Assembly (NCBI RefSeq): GCF_009759685.1
Contig: NZ_CP046654.1
Span: 682,001 to 746,000, forward strand
Source of the DNA: Acinetobacter baumannii
GTDB taxonomy: Bacteria > Pseudomonadota > Gammaproteobacteria > Pseudomonadales > Moraxellaceae
DNA length: 64,000 bases
Direction: 5' to 3'
Every line of letters begins with the position of its first letter. Position 1 is the stretch's first letter. The position numbers were made by a program, and so were the translations under genes. Under the pieces are notes generated by a model. The model made no database searches and was not told the origin of the DNA. It saw nothing but the letters and a program-made list of their open reading frames with translations. Shown here one piece after another: positions 7,436-48,562 of the stretch.

Positions 7436-8896
7436 ATGAGCGAAACACATGCTCCTGAAAAACTCCAGCGTAAGCTTGGGGCTCGTCATCTGAATATGAT
7501 CGCCATTGGTGGTTCCATTGGTACAGGTCTCTTCCTTGCTTCTGGGTCAACGATTGCAAATGCAGGTCCAGGCGGGGCGTTACTCGCCTACTCCCTCATT
7601 GGTATTATGATTTACTTCTTAATGACCAGTTTAGGTGAACTTGCGACACACACACCAACATCCGGTGCATTCTTTACCTATGGAAGTCGCTACGTCGAAG
7701 AAGGTTTTGGTTTCGCTCTAGGCTGGAACTACTGGTACAACTGGGCAATTACGGTTGCGTTTGAACTCGTTGCCGTACAGTTTATTATGAAATTCTGGTT
7801 TCCAGATGTTCCCGGATTCTATTGGAGCGCCCTCTTTCTCGTCATTATCTTTATGATTAATGCGATGACCGTAAAAGGATTTGGTGAAAGTGAATTCTGG
7901 TTCTCCATGGTTAAAGTAATTGCCATTGTTGCCTTTATTATCATTGGTATCGCCATGATTATTAAGATTATGTTGACACCAGGAGTAGCAACTTTTGGCA
8001 ACTGGACTTATAAAGAGGCACCTTTCGTAGGTGGTTTACAAGCCATGATTGGGGTAGCCATGATTGCCGGGTTCTCATTTCAGGGAACCGAGATGGTGGG
8101 TGTTGCAGCGGGTGAATCAAAAGATCCGAAGAAGACGATTCCGCTTGCAATTAAACAGATTTTCTGGCGAATTTTATTATTCTATATCTTGTGTATTTTC
8201 ATTATCGGCACCCTAATTGCCTATGATGATCCAAACTTATTACAAGCAGCAGCAACAGAAAATATTGCTCTTTCTCCTTTCACCTTACTTTATGAAAAAG
8301 TAGGTTTTGCTTTTGCTGCAAGCTTAATGAATGCAGTTATTTTGACTGCTATTTTGTCAGCAGGTAACTCGGGCATGTATTCTTCTACCCGTATGTTATT
8401 TGATATGGCGCAACAAGGCCGTGCACCAAAATGGTTTGCAAAACTCGATAATCGTGGTGTTCCAATGAATGCGTTATATGCAACTACATTCATTGCTGCA
8501 TTCTGCTTCTTAACGACTTTTATCGGAGAAAAGCAAGTATTTAACTGGCTCCTCAATATGTCAGGAATGTGTGGTTTCATTGTCTGGTTAGGTATTGCAA
8601 TTTCGCATTATCGTTTCCGTAAAGGTTATATTGCTCAAGGTTATAAATTAGAAGATCTTGCATACCGCGCTAAGTTTTTCCCATTCGCACCTTGGTTTGC
8701 CTTTATCCTCTGTTCTGTCATTATTTTAGGACAAAACTACCAAGCGGTTTTAGGCGGTAAAATTGACTGGATTGGCTTACTTTCTACTTATATCAGCTTG
8801 CCTTTATTCTTAGTAATCTGGCTTGGATATAAATGGAAAAATAAAACTAAATTAATTCCTTACGATCAAATGGATGTAAAACCAGAGCAAGATTAA
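7436..8896 (+). CDS. lysP: Lysine-specific amino acid permease (LysP-like, APC superfamily)
   Basis: 486-residue inner-membrane proton symporter with about 12 transmembrane helices. The N-terminus (ARHLNMIAIGGSIGTGLF) is the APC substrate-binding signature, and PGGALLAYSLIGIMIYFLMTS and EGFGFALGWNYWYNW match my memory of E. coli LysP closely, better than GABA or aromatic permeases. FSFQGTEMVGVAAGE in the middle is the second conserved APC segment. The Shine-Dalgarno AAGGAA precedes the ATG. No lysine riboswitch fits in the 21-base gap to rsmC, so control would come from the upstream promoter. Confidence 0.87.
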   Translation: MSETHAPEKLQRKLGARHLNMIAIGGSIGTGLFLASGSTIANAGPGGALLAYSLIGIMIYFLMTSLGELATHTPTSGAFFTYGSRYVEEGFGFALGWNYWYNWAITVAFELVAVQFIMKFWFPDVPGFYWSALFLVIIFMINAMTVKGFGESEFWFSMVKVIAIVAFIIIGIAMIIKIMLTPGVATFGNWTYKEAPFVGGLQAMIGVAMIAGFSFQGTEMVGVAAGESKDPKKTIPLAIKQIFWRILLFYILCIFIIGTLIAYDDPNLLQAAATENIALSPFTLLYEKVGFAFAASLMNAVILTAILSAGNSGMYSSTRMLFDMAQQGRAPKWFAKLDNRGVPMNALYATTFIAAFCFLTTFIGEKQVFNWLLNMSGMCGFIVWLGIAISHYRFRKGYIAQGYKLEDLAYRAKFFPFAPWFAFILCSVIILGQNYQAVLGGKIDWIGLLSTYISLPLFLVIWLGYKWKNKTKLIPYDQMDVKPEQD

Positions 8897-8941
8897 TACT
8901 GAGTTCAAGTAATTAATCAGCGCTTATCAAAGGTCAAAAAC

Positions 8942-8969
8942 TTGATCTTTAGTTAAAAACAGGTAAAAT
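8942..8969 (+). promoter_or_regulatory. Putative sigma70 promoter for the rtcB leader
   Basis: TTGATC (8942-8947), a 16-base spacer and TAAAAT (8964-8969). A start near 8976 would give a leader of about 200 bases before rtcB. This is inference from motif match only. Confidence 0.45.
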
Positions 8970-8996
8970 GCCGTTCATATTTTCAACGGCACTTTT
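8969..8996 (+). terminator. Hairpin after lysP, probable weak terminator
   Basis: Stem TGCCGTT (8969-8975) with AACGGCA (8985-8991), nine-base loop, then CTTTTT. Its left arm overlaps the -10 box of the putative rtcB-leader promoter. Confidence 0.6.
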
Positions 8997-9140
8997 TAAA
9001 AAAGGAGGACATCATGCCAACACTACAAGGTAAAACACAGTAACGATTTGGCACGATGTCAGCTCACGGACAAGTGTACAAATTTAATTCACTTGTCCGA
9101 ATGCTTGAATTTAAGACCTAGCATTCGCTAGGTTTTTTTA
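8976..9140 (+). ncRNA. Structured leader / small RNA candidate upstream of rtcB
   Basis: The region has three nested or consecutive hairpins. GACATCATGCCA (9008-9019) pairs with TGGCACGATGTC (9049-9060) with one mismatch. CGGACAAGTG (9067-9076) pairs perfectly with CACTTGTCCG (9090-9099). ACCTAGC/GCTAGGT (9116-9122 with 9127-9133) plus seven T form a terminator 40 bases before rtcB. A perfect AAAGGAGG (9001-9008) precedes ATG 9014 of a 9-codon ORF (MPTLQGKTQ, TAA at 9041-9043), and the same frame reopens at ATG 9056 to a stop at 9121. The first stem hides ATG 9014. It could be an attenuator leader for rtcB or a free small RNA; the sequence does not decide. Confidence 0.6.
9116..9140 (+). terminator. 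Terminator inside the rtcB leader
   Basis: Seven-bp stem ACCTAGC/GCTAGGT with a four-base loop ATTC, followed directly by seven T. It lies before rtcB, so it either ends a small RNA or acts as an attenuator. Confidence 0.8.
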
Positions 9141-9172
9141 TTCCTATTCGGACAATAAATAAGAGAATAATT

Positions 9173-10378
9173 ATGGGCATACAAAAGATATTAAACGAAG
9201 AGGCACAATATGGTGTCCCCGTTAAAATTTTCACTCAAGACATAGATAGTGAAAGTATTGAACAACTCAAGAAGATGGCACAACTGCAATTTATATATTC
9301 TCATATTGCTGTTATGCCTGATGTGCATGTTGGAAAAGGTGCAACTGTAGGCAGCGTCATTCCTACTAAACATGCCATTATTCCTGCTGCAGTGGGTGTA
9401 GATATTGGCTGCGGAATGAATGCTATTCGTTTGAGCCTGAAAGCTTCACAACTTCCAGATAACTTAAGTCGCTTGCGGGACGCCATTGAACGGAAAGTGC
9501 CGGTTGGATTTGCTTTGCACAAACAAGTCAAAGCGAAAGCTTCTAGCATTATTCCACTTGAAAAACGCTTAGAACCTATTATTAAAAAGCATCCGGGTCT
9601 TGTCCGAATGCTTCGTCAGTTTGAGGCAACATGGCAAAAACAGTTGGGCACTTTAGGCGGCGGTAATCACTTTATAGAGTTATGTATTGATGAAAATCAA
9701 GATGTATGGGTGATGCTCCATTCGGGCAGCCGAGGTCTTGGTAACGTCATAGGTACTTATTTTATTGAGTTGGCCAAGAAAGAGGCACAACATCGCTTTG
9801 GGCACGTGCCTGATAAAGATTTAAGTTATTTTGCTGAAGGCTCGCAAAGCTTTAATGATTATGTAGAAGCAGTAGAGTGGGCTCAAGAATATGCTTTTGA
9901 AAATCGTAAAGAAATGATGCGATTAATATTAGAAGCAATTCGCCCTCTTCTACCTTCTTTTCAAATGACGAAAGAAGCAATCAATTGTCACCATAACTAT
10001 GTGAGTCAAGAAACACACTTTGGTGAAAACCTTTTTGTTACAAGAAAAGGGGCAATTAGAGCAGGTTTAGATGAGTTAGGAATTATTCCAGGCTCTATGG
10101 GAGCACGCTCGTATATTGTTAAAGGTAAAGCAAACCCTGAATCTTTTTGTTCTTGTTCTCATGGAGCTGGCCGCAAAATGAGCCGAAGCAAAGCAAAAGT
10201 TCTTTTTAATCAGCAGGACTTGATTGAACAAACACAAGGGATTGAATGCCGTAAAGACAGTGGTGTAGTCGATGAAATTCCAACTGCCTATAAAGATATT
10301 GATGAGGTTATAGCCAATCAGGCAGATCTCATTGAAGTCGTTCATACTCTTAAACAAGTTTTATGTATTAAAGGTTAA
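9173..10378 (+). CDS. rtcB: RNA-splicing ligase RtcB
   Basis: GTP- and Mn-dependent ligase that joins RNA 2',3'-cyclic phosphate (or 3'-phosphate) ends to 5'-OH ends, used in RNA repair. 401 residues, close to E. coli RtcB (408) along its length. Visible active-site parts: HIAVMPDVHVGKGATVG, GVDIGCGMNA (metal ligand Cys80), LGTLGGGNHFIEL, HSGSRGLGN, INCHHNYV, and CSCSHGAGR, whose His330 should carry the GMP. No rtcA cyclase and no sigma54 regulator rtcR sit beside it, unlike E. coli. Instead there is a structured leader upstream and a 52-residue basic protein gene three bases downstream. Confidence 0.96.
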   Translation: MGIQKILNEEAQYGVPVKIFTQDIDSESIEQLKKMAQLQFIYSHIAVMPDVHVGKGATVGSVIPTKHAIIPAAVGVDIGCGMNAIRLSLKASQLPDNLSRLRDAIERKVPVGFALHKQVKAKASSIIPLEKRLEPIIKKHPGLVRMLRQFEATWQKQLGTLGGGNHFIELCIDENQDVWVMLHSGSRGLGNVIGTYFIELAKKEAQHRFGHVPDKDLSYFAEGSQSFNDYVEAVEWAQEYAFENRKEMMRLILEAIRPLLPSFQMTKEAINCHHNYVSQETHFGENLFVTRKGAIRAGLDELGIIPGSMGARSYIVKGKANPESFCSCSHGAGRKMSRSKAKVLFNQQDLIEQTQGIECRKDSGVVDEIPTAYKDIDEVIANQADLIEVVHTLKQVLCIKG

Positions 10379-10381
10379 GAC

Positions 10382-10540
10382 ATGAAAATTAAAGAAATGC
10401 CGAAAATTAAGGTCCGTAATCAAGTAGCTCTATCCCCTCTACTTCACAAAGGTGGTATGCACGAAACAGAAAAACCTCGTGCTCAACATCGTAGAAATAG
10501 ACAAGATACTAAACAGCAATTGAAGAAAGGGGTTTGGTAA
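10382..10540 (+). CDS. Small basic protein encoded with rtcB (function unknown)
   Basis: 52 residues, strongly basic (about 16 Lys/Arg plus several His), with no membrane segment or signal peptide. The ATG at 10382 lies three bases after the rtcB stop, and AAAGG at 10370-10374, inside the rtcB end, serves as Shine-Dalgarno, so translation is probably coupled. Notable parts are VALSPLLHKGGMHETEK and the charged tail RRNRQDTKQQLKKG. I do not recognise a family with certainty. RNA or ribosome binding is plausible from composition and from its neighbour, but that is inference. Confidence 0.75.
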   Translation: MKIKEMPKIKVRNQVALSPLLHKGGMHETEKPRAQHRRNRQDTKQQLKKGVW

Positions 10541-48301: not shown

Positions 48302-48330
48302 TTGTACGAAGTAATTCGGCACTTTATACT
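48302..48330 (+). promoter_or_regulatory. btuB promoter
   Basis: TTGTAC (48302-48307), exactly 17 bases, TATACT (48325-48330). A start near 48337 coincides with the beginning of the riboswitch. Confidence 0.65.
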
Positions 48331-48336
48331 GCGTTC

Positions 48337-48562
48337 AAATGGAAGCAAGTGTAAGCAATTCATGCTTTAGGGAAGCTGGTGAAAGTCCGGCACTGCCCCC
48401 GCAACGGTAACAATGTAAAGCATATTTTTTAAGTCAAAATCGACTTACACCACTGCAGTAGTGTGGGAAGGTGAATATGTCCATAAATGAATTATGGCGC
48501 TGAAGTCCGGAGACCTACTTGTTTCATCTATCTACCCGATCATTCACGTGGGGTGAATGTAT
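48337..48562 (+). promoter_or_regulatory. Cobalamin (adenosylcobalamin) riboswitch
   Basis: The core GGGAAGCTGGTGAAAGTCC and CACTGCCCCCGCAACGGT (48370-48408) and the B12 box GAAGTCCGGAGACCTAC (48502-48518) are diagnostic. Ahead of btuB a hairpin CATTCAC/GTGAATG (48541-48559) could block the ribosome site when B12 is bound, so control is probably translational. Confidence 0.95.

Follow-up and report, generated by a model that had tools for sequence, protein, structure and literature searches.

In attenuators of the trp type and in those of tet(M), erm, vmlR and the Escherichia coli topAI uORF, the position of the ribosome on a short open reading frame (ORF) picks which competing helix forms. 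The leader considered here, ahead of an rtcB gene of Acinetobacter baumannii, shares with them the competing helices and the short ORF, but differs in that the peptide of its mini-ORF is not conserved in Acinetobacter and that its output is an RNA-repair enzyme. RtcR is the known activator of rtcB and, with sigma-54, turns the gene on under RNA damage in operons of the E. coli type; to our knowledge, bacterial control of the widespread RtcB outside such RtcR-type operons is largely unexplained.

The nearest known system is the PA5471.1 leader of armZ (PA5471) in Pseudomonas aeruginosa, a gene which we take to belong to the PRK09588 and TIGR03073 models. According to passages of the literature, PA5471.1 is an ORF of 13 codons, and when its translation stalls, termination ahead of the RtcB-like armZ is relieved; the leader is transcribed constitutively, has a terminator formed by its segments 3 and 4 and is induced when ribosome inhibitors are given or the tRNA CCA-adding enzyme is lost (PMC12057347, PMC3516279, PMC13041342). 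The likeness to the present locus lies in a short ORF and a terminator ahead of an RtcB-family gene. Whereas the armZ product is an anti-repressor of MexZ, the gene analysed here encodes an RtcB outside the armZ subfamily, which scores 193 bits with PRK09588 (NCBIfam, cut-off 407) and stays under the cut-offs of both PRK09588 and TIGR03073; a protein taken for an armZ relative (L132, 351 aa read) exceeds both, with 494 bits for PRK09588. Compared with PA5471.1 as described in print, the Acinetobacter leader adds a separate hairpin (A:B) before the terminator and a further element, D. A literature search reaching few subscription journals found no earlier report of an rtcB attenuator in Acinetobacter.

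AbsR28 as a probable leader of rtcB

The window, a stretch of 64,000 nucleotides of A. baumannii (contig NZ_CP046654.1, positions 682,001 to 746,000), carries the features collected in Table 1. The element ahead of its rtcB is AbsR28, already in print as a small RNA: Rfam family RF02606 matches it with 231 bits against a cut-off of 50, over model positions 1–180. Passages of the published reports describe an RNA of about 180 nt, found by northern blot and RACE in every growth phase tested (PMC3976366), re-detected by RNA-seq and annotated with 203 nt in strain AB5075 (PMC5320573) and, in a later paper, credited with manganese-dependent repression of tssM (PMC11796373). While AbsR28 is thus a trans-acting tssM regulator in print, it is read here as the cis leader of rtcB. 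The term 'rtcb' is absent from the main text of the AbsR28 papers PMC11796373, PMC3976366, PMC11426457, PMC5320573, PMC12455925 and PMC5538643, and neither 'rtcB' nor 'AbsR28' occurs in the main text of two A. baumannii RNA–RNA interactome papers, where the RNA may go by another name. Direct reading of a weak secondary RF02606 match in the source genome (L002) shows nothing alike; secondary matches score 26–33 bits.

Table 1. Features of the rtcB leader and its surroundings (positions in the window)
Feature	Position	Strand	Basis or remark
Sigma-70-like promoter (−35 TTGATC 8942–8947, −10 TAAAAT 8964–8969)	8942–8969	+	Sequence read and promoter scan
AbsR28 RNA (RF02606), a small RNA of 180 nt in print	8977–9156	+	Rfam match; exact ends taken from it
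Shine–Dalgarno sequence AAAGGAGG of the mini-ORF	9001–9008	+	Sequence read; overlaps the published tssM 'seed'
Region 1, Shine–Dalgarno/start-codon arm	9008–9020	+	Pairs with region 2
Mini-ORF, MPTLQGKTQ and stop	9014–9043	+	Sequence read and 72 leaders
Region 2, arm just 3′ of the mini-ORF stop	9048–9060	+	Partner is region 1 or region 3
Region 3 (A)	9067–9076	+	Pairs with region 2 or B
Region 4 (B)	9090–9105	+	9090–9099 with A; 9093–9102 with D; 9098–9105 with terminator arm 9120–9127
Intrinsic terminator (hairpin 9116–9133, T tract to 9139)	9116–9139	+	Terminator scan and sequence read
Region 5 (D), ATTCGGACAA, immediately 5′ of the rtcB ribosome-binding site	9146–9155	+	Pairs with B
rtcB, RNA ligase RtcB family	9173–10378	+	Pfam RtcB, 429 bits
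Conserved 52-aa ORF right after rtcB	10382–10540	+	ORF with homologues

The promoter spacing suits an RNA start at 8977, on which the start of the Rfam match and the published numbering of AbsR28 agree; its A27GGA30 falls on 9003–9006, the core of the mini-ORF Shine–Dalgarno sequence. A −35/−10 pair such as this one is not rare by chance (one in the scan against a shuffle mean of 1.2); in the portion of the leader alignment read by eye, TTGA(C/T) and an AT-rich −10 are kept in most relatives. The terminator is the single terminator-like site in 8880–9200, with a shuffle mean of 0.0.

A sequence-only reading of this stretch had listed the promoter-like boxes, the Shine–Dalgarno sequence, the 9-codon ORF and a second, perfect hairpin of 10 bp (A with the first ten bases of B), all of which are present. 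Other details had to be amended: the stem said to enclose the ATG has its 12 bp but is not perfect, as the first base of the ATG forms an A.C mismatch; the in-frame continuation after the TAA exists and is 25 rather than 26 codons long; and the T tract of the terminator, put at 40 bases before the rtcB ATG, ends 33 bases before it. The RF02606 identity, the antiterminator-like pairing and element D had been missed.

So short a distance between T tract and start codon bears on the question whether AbsR28 and rtcB are separate transcription units, with rtcB expressed from an inducible promoter of its own that overlaps the terminator region. A published absR28 deletion without polar effect, mentioned in passages of PMC11796373, speaks for such an arrangement, which we nevertheless regard as highly improbable, as a simple scan of 8880–9200 for sigma-70 sites, the promoter type it covers, gave the AbsR28 site as the only one, and as the conserved ORF, the helices and D would be left unexplained.

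Downstream of rtcB, the 52-aa ORF has 61 homologues, from Acinetobacter wherever the source organism is named, has no match in Pfam or NCBIfam and may, next to rtcB, also be under the control of the switch; from its position directly 3′ of rtcB, AB57_3343 of strain AB0057 is presumably the same ORF. An exact repeat of 15 nt between the leader (9092–9106) and the rtcB coding sequence (9599–9613) was considered as mimicry and is probably due to chance, since most relatives are without it. Elsewhere in the window, a cobalamin riboswitch (RF00174, 80 bits) lies at 48330–48536 on the + strand.

A mini-ORF conserved in position and length

A strong Shine–Dalgarno sequence followed by a short ORF is found in all 72 aligned leaders, a set which includes L072 (32.9 bits, before rtcB), L060 (rtcB split over two frames) and L045 (rtcB remnant), while L074 and L075 (31 bits, no rtcB), L076 (second paralogue only), L077, L078, L083 and L084 stand outside it. 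The mini-ORF has 9 codons in 61 of the 72 and 7–10 in 71, and ends 14–20 nt before region A. Its peptides vary freely, as in MPTLQGKTQ, MLTLENTTN, MLKQERNFK and MSNFRKFFK. Among 21 representatives (leaders less than 85% identical), the first stop comes after 7–10 codons in frame 0 in 20 cases, against 8 of 42 in the other frames. The feature that is kept, as judged from the aligned sequences, is thus the position and length of translation and not the peptide. Sensing of a specific codon in Acinetobacter was set aside for the same variability, and because the peptide is unconserved a general stall seems to be sensed. The 25 codons in frame after the TAA run to a TAG, and at least 20 codons are open there in 14 of the 21 representatives; no role is assigned to this run.

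Competing helices and their covariation

Covariation was assessed by comparing each leader's own pairing partner with partners from other leaders, in the 21 representatives (19 for B:D). The own partner was better in 19 of 21 for helix 1:2 (p = 5e-4), in 18 of 21 for 2:3 (p = 3e-4) and in 21 of 21 for A:B (p = 1e-6), with control pairings near chance (7/19, 9/21, 10/19 and 7/21). The mutually exclusive helices 1:2, 2:3 and A:B are therefore backed by covariation. Compensatory changes, which an earlier proposal of a structured leader had called for, are found among the Acinetobacter leaders: in the A:B stem 677 of 710 cells are paired, with compensatory change at 4 of 10 pairs (71 of the 72 rows, L073 omitted), and in the terminator stem all 497 cells are paired, with compensatory changes at 3 of 7 pairs (71 of the 72 rows, L070 omitted).

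Element D, which follows the terminator, can pair with B. Within Acinetobacter alone the covariation of B:D is not significant (own partner better in 15 of 19, p = 0.13); with five leaders of other genera added, 19 of 24 favour their own partner (permutation p = 2e-4). In some of the leaders from other genera B and D are altered together, e.g. GGTAAATATC with GATATTTACC in L079; L087 is an exception, its B pairing no better with its own D than with those of others. Against the stretch after the terminator, B pairs better than with shuffles (p < 0.05) in 62 of 70 leaders. The idea that D is lost wherever rtcB is lost was dropped: of the two loci without rtcB, a D-like sequence that fits the altered B persists in L047 (p = 0.048) but not in L054 (p = 0.18).

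The 3′ part of B can in addition form an antiterminator-like pairing with the 5′ arm of the terminator. This pairing shows no covariation in Acinetobacter because it is nearly invariant there; antiterminator pairings of different wording were seen by eye in L099 and L109.

The Rfam model end, taken as the RACE end, lies 17 nt beyond the T tract and just beyond D. Since a simply terminated RNA would stop short of 9156, processing of a read-through RNA is possible.

Folding with a modelled ribosome

The ribosome was modelled as a masked footprint on the start or the stop codon of the mini-ORF. With the start masked, folding of the transcript as it stands before B has been made gives 2:3 in all 72 leaders; the free RNA gives it in 13 of 72, and masking of the stop in none. 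Such raw counts overstate the switch because masking the start by itself frees region 2, hence the shuffle controls, against which 19 of the 21 representatives switch at this stage where 3.9 are expected. In full-length RNA, 50 of 70 leaders, that of the window among them, go from A:B to 2:3 plus B:D with the start masked and show A:B when the stop is masked; among 19 representatives, 15 switch in this way against 2.3 expected when the stretch after the terminator, and only this stretch, is shuffled. The other 20 of the 70 leaders do not show the full-length switch, including 10 of the 13 closest relatives of the window's leader (L003–L015). Ribosome position is thus predicted to select the fold.

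In Acinetobacter, no modelled state opens the terminator at equilibrium (medians), and in the transcript ending before the terminator the antiterminator pairing is predicted irrespective of the ribosome, so that bypass of the terminator would rest on kinetics. Eight leaders of other genera were folded as well. Three (L079, L081 and L088) switch, with the seven pairs of the antiterminator plus B:D replacing the terminator when the start is masked and none of the seven forming in the free RNA; L085, L086 and L101 switch in part and L087 and L099 do not.

These folds raise the question of the level at which a switch would act. If its output were rtcB translation or mRNA stability, B:D would open the ribosome-binding site or set a processing point, and the terminator would only shape the small RNA. 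B:D does require RNA past the terminator and is seen in the start-masked full-length fold with the terminator still folded, and the probable RNA end at 9156 would fit a processing point next to D. As the main level of control we find this rather unlikely, given that the published rise of rtcB (passages of PMC7652931) was counted in transcripts, that the terminator is nearly invariant and that three of the eight leaders from other genera swap it for the antiterminator when the start is masked. Such an output overlaps with attenuation of transcription, and both could act.

Genomic company of AbsR28 and rtcB

Among 149 Acinetobacter genomes, 67 carry AbsR28 and rtcB, two rtcB only, three AbsR28 only and 77 neither, with the line for AbsR28 drawn at 41.9 bits or more after the listing had been seen; 64 genomes reach the Rfam cut-off of 50. 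The two rtcB loci lacking an AbsR28 call (L072, L073) carry B, the terminator and the mini-ORF on direct reading, and rtcB is present in 67 of the 70 genomes with AbsR28. In the remaining three, rtcB is gone (L047, L054) or left as a remnant with stops (L045), and the leader and a downstream ORF like the 52-aa one are still present.

The distribution can be set against the published role of the RNA. On one reading AbsR28 is chiefly a free-standing small RNA that acts in trans, depends on manganese and represses tssM and type VI secretion, and lies before rtcB by coincidence. Gel shifts, a compensatory mutation and a deletion phenotype, given in passages of PMC11796373, are in favour of this, as is the retention of AbsR28 where rtcB is lost or decayed. 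We consider it improbable as the main function, however: AbsR28 co-occurs near-perfectly with one rtcB paralogue; the published seed is the core of the mini-ORF Shine–Dalgarno sequence; a conserved short ORF, three competing helices and D are the features of a cis switch; and in all three loci without intact rtcB a cis target remains in the 52-aa-like ORF.

RtcR, by comparison, accompanies another gene. The source genome has no match to RtcR (E. coli control positive), unlike the E. coli-type rtcB operon, in agreement with the earlier remark that RtcR/sigma-54 control is not seen at this locus. In the genus, RtcR occurs in 44 of the 149 genomes, exactly the 44 with a second rtcB paralogue, which is 53–60% identical, is absent from the source genome and is present only in pieces in one further genome (G144); −24/−12-like promoter sequences (by eye in the loci read) lie upstream of it. 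Control of the window rtcB by RtcR was accordingly rejected.

Distribution beyond Acinetobacter

From a longer list obtained by a search with an alignment of this RtcB, 80 named relatives were kept and 78 loci examined, two with a short upstream region being dropped. A Shine–Dalgarno sequence, an ORF of 7–23 codons and an intrinsic terminator follow each other in this order in 36 of the 78 loci, from gamma- and betaproteobacteria; none of 78 reverse complements, none of 78 shuffles and none of 12 regions upstream of the other paralogue shows it, and the layout has no match in the other 42 loci. Seven of the 36 are Acinetobacter and 29 are not, the latter including Alloalcanivorax, Marinobacter, Cellvibrio, Microbulbifer, Massilia, Collimonas, Undibacterium and Thiobacillus. 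The stop lies 48–76 nt from the terminator in 30 of the 36.

For loci of other genera, the evidence for the helices is less firm than that for the layout. Helix 1:2 reaches p < 0.05 in 14 of the 36 loci, six of them Acinetobacter, and in none of the Massilia, Duganella, Collimonas, Undibacterium, Paucimonas and Thiobacillus loci. The predicted ribosome switch is found there in 13 of 23 leaders (23 of the 29 layout loci) where 5.7 are expected, a weaker support than within the genus. Rfam gave no family match in 20 loci, namely 15 of the 36 and five others. Of 20 further Moraxellaceae loci, six were folded; the other 14, a Moraxella and a probable Psychrobacter among them, show by eye at most a Shine–Dalgarno sequence and a short ORF.

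Two side observations concern relatives of the gene. In another genus, the rtcB of locus L085 (genome G201) is 86% identical to that of the window and has a closely similar leader, with a 17-codon ORF that is also found in L073 (genome G077); horizontal transfer is possible. Upstream of four armZ-like RtcB genes (L119, L125, L126 and L127), 37–39% identical to the window RtcB, a Shine–Dalgarno sequence and a short ORF were seen by eye, the latter with 13 codons in L125, as reported for PA5471.1.

Published expression and phenotype data

Passages of an RNA-seq study (GEO GSE131451) of A. baumannii under tigecycline (2.5 µg/ml, 30 min) give rtcB and the next gene (AB57_3343 in AB0057) as the top two induced, with 252-fold, note signs of ribosomes stalling after initiation and carry the authors' proposal of a toxin–antitoxin link or a tRNA-repair response (PMC7652931). 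A stall on the start codon is the position at which folding predicts the ON state. The published induction fits the model; the rise could also have another cause. With minocycline at half the MIC, rtcB went up 2.6-fold, a small change, according to a passage of PMC9741440.

Other data count against an attenuator: flanking transcripts were unchanged upon deletion of absR28 (passages of PMC11796373), and a passage of a study of the tRNA methyltransferase TrmB lists an RtcB family protein at 0.40, i.e. lower (PMC10653896). The TrmB passage and the 10 close relatives that fail to show the full-length switch take some weight from the attenuator reading. In Acinetobacter Tol 5, an rtcB_2, which may be either paralogue, is up under desiccation (passage of PMC13130816). 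In Acinetobacter baylyi, five of six LB-evolved clones of one deletion strain are mutated in or near a predicted AbsR28 homologue (passage of PMC11426457), which is compatible with an attenuator as well as with a trans-acting small RNA.

A probable ribosome-sensing switch ahead of RNA repair

With a probability of roughly three in four, we read the AbsR28 leader as a ribosome-mediated attenuator which sets rtcB, and the small gene after it, by the movement of the ribosome. Transcription from 8977 would be constant. With the mini-ORF translated and promptly terminated, the ribosome at the stop would cover region 2, while on an untranslated mini-ORF region 1 would hold it; in both situations A:B would pair, the terminator would form and the terminated RNA would accumulate as AbsR28. 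A ribosome stuck on the start or first codons, be it by a tigecycline-like block or for want of a usable tRNA, would mask region 1 and leave region 2 free, 2:3 would then form before B is made, and B, left unpaired, could engage the 5′ terminator arm and, later on, D by the rtcB start, so that the polymerase reads through. Translation of the mini-ORF, stalling on it as the signal, and bypass of the terminator by way of the antiterminator pairing and D are inferred parts of this model. The most likely reading of AbsR28 is that it is what a conserved, ribosome-sensing rtcB attenuator produces in its OFF state.

The sequence-only reading had proposed either a translation-sensitive attenuator or a small RNA, a proposal that has held up well: a transcript across the region is in print (passages of PMC3976366), the stems covary, tigecycline induction fits and the mini-ORF is conserved in relatives, by position and length and not by peptide. 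Its suggestion of an undescribed switch for RNA repair went too far in one respect, since AbsR28 is already on record as an RNA and control of the same type has been described for the RtcB-like armZ.

On a broader scale, we lean slightly towards the view that in many beta- and gammaproteobacteria one class of RtcB is coupled directly to ribosome stalling by a five-element attenuator that works independently of the peptide, in which broken tRNA or rRNA, by stalling ribosomes, would induce its own repair and AbsR28 would be the OFF by-product. A ribosome-sensing leader would tie RNA repair directly to failing translation. It would offer an explanation for the 252-fold tigecycline response of A. 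baumannii rtcB and recast a small RNA printed as a regulator of type VI secretion. With loci of like layout in other genera, the question reaches beyond Acinetobacter.
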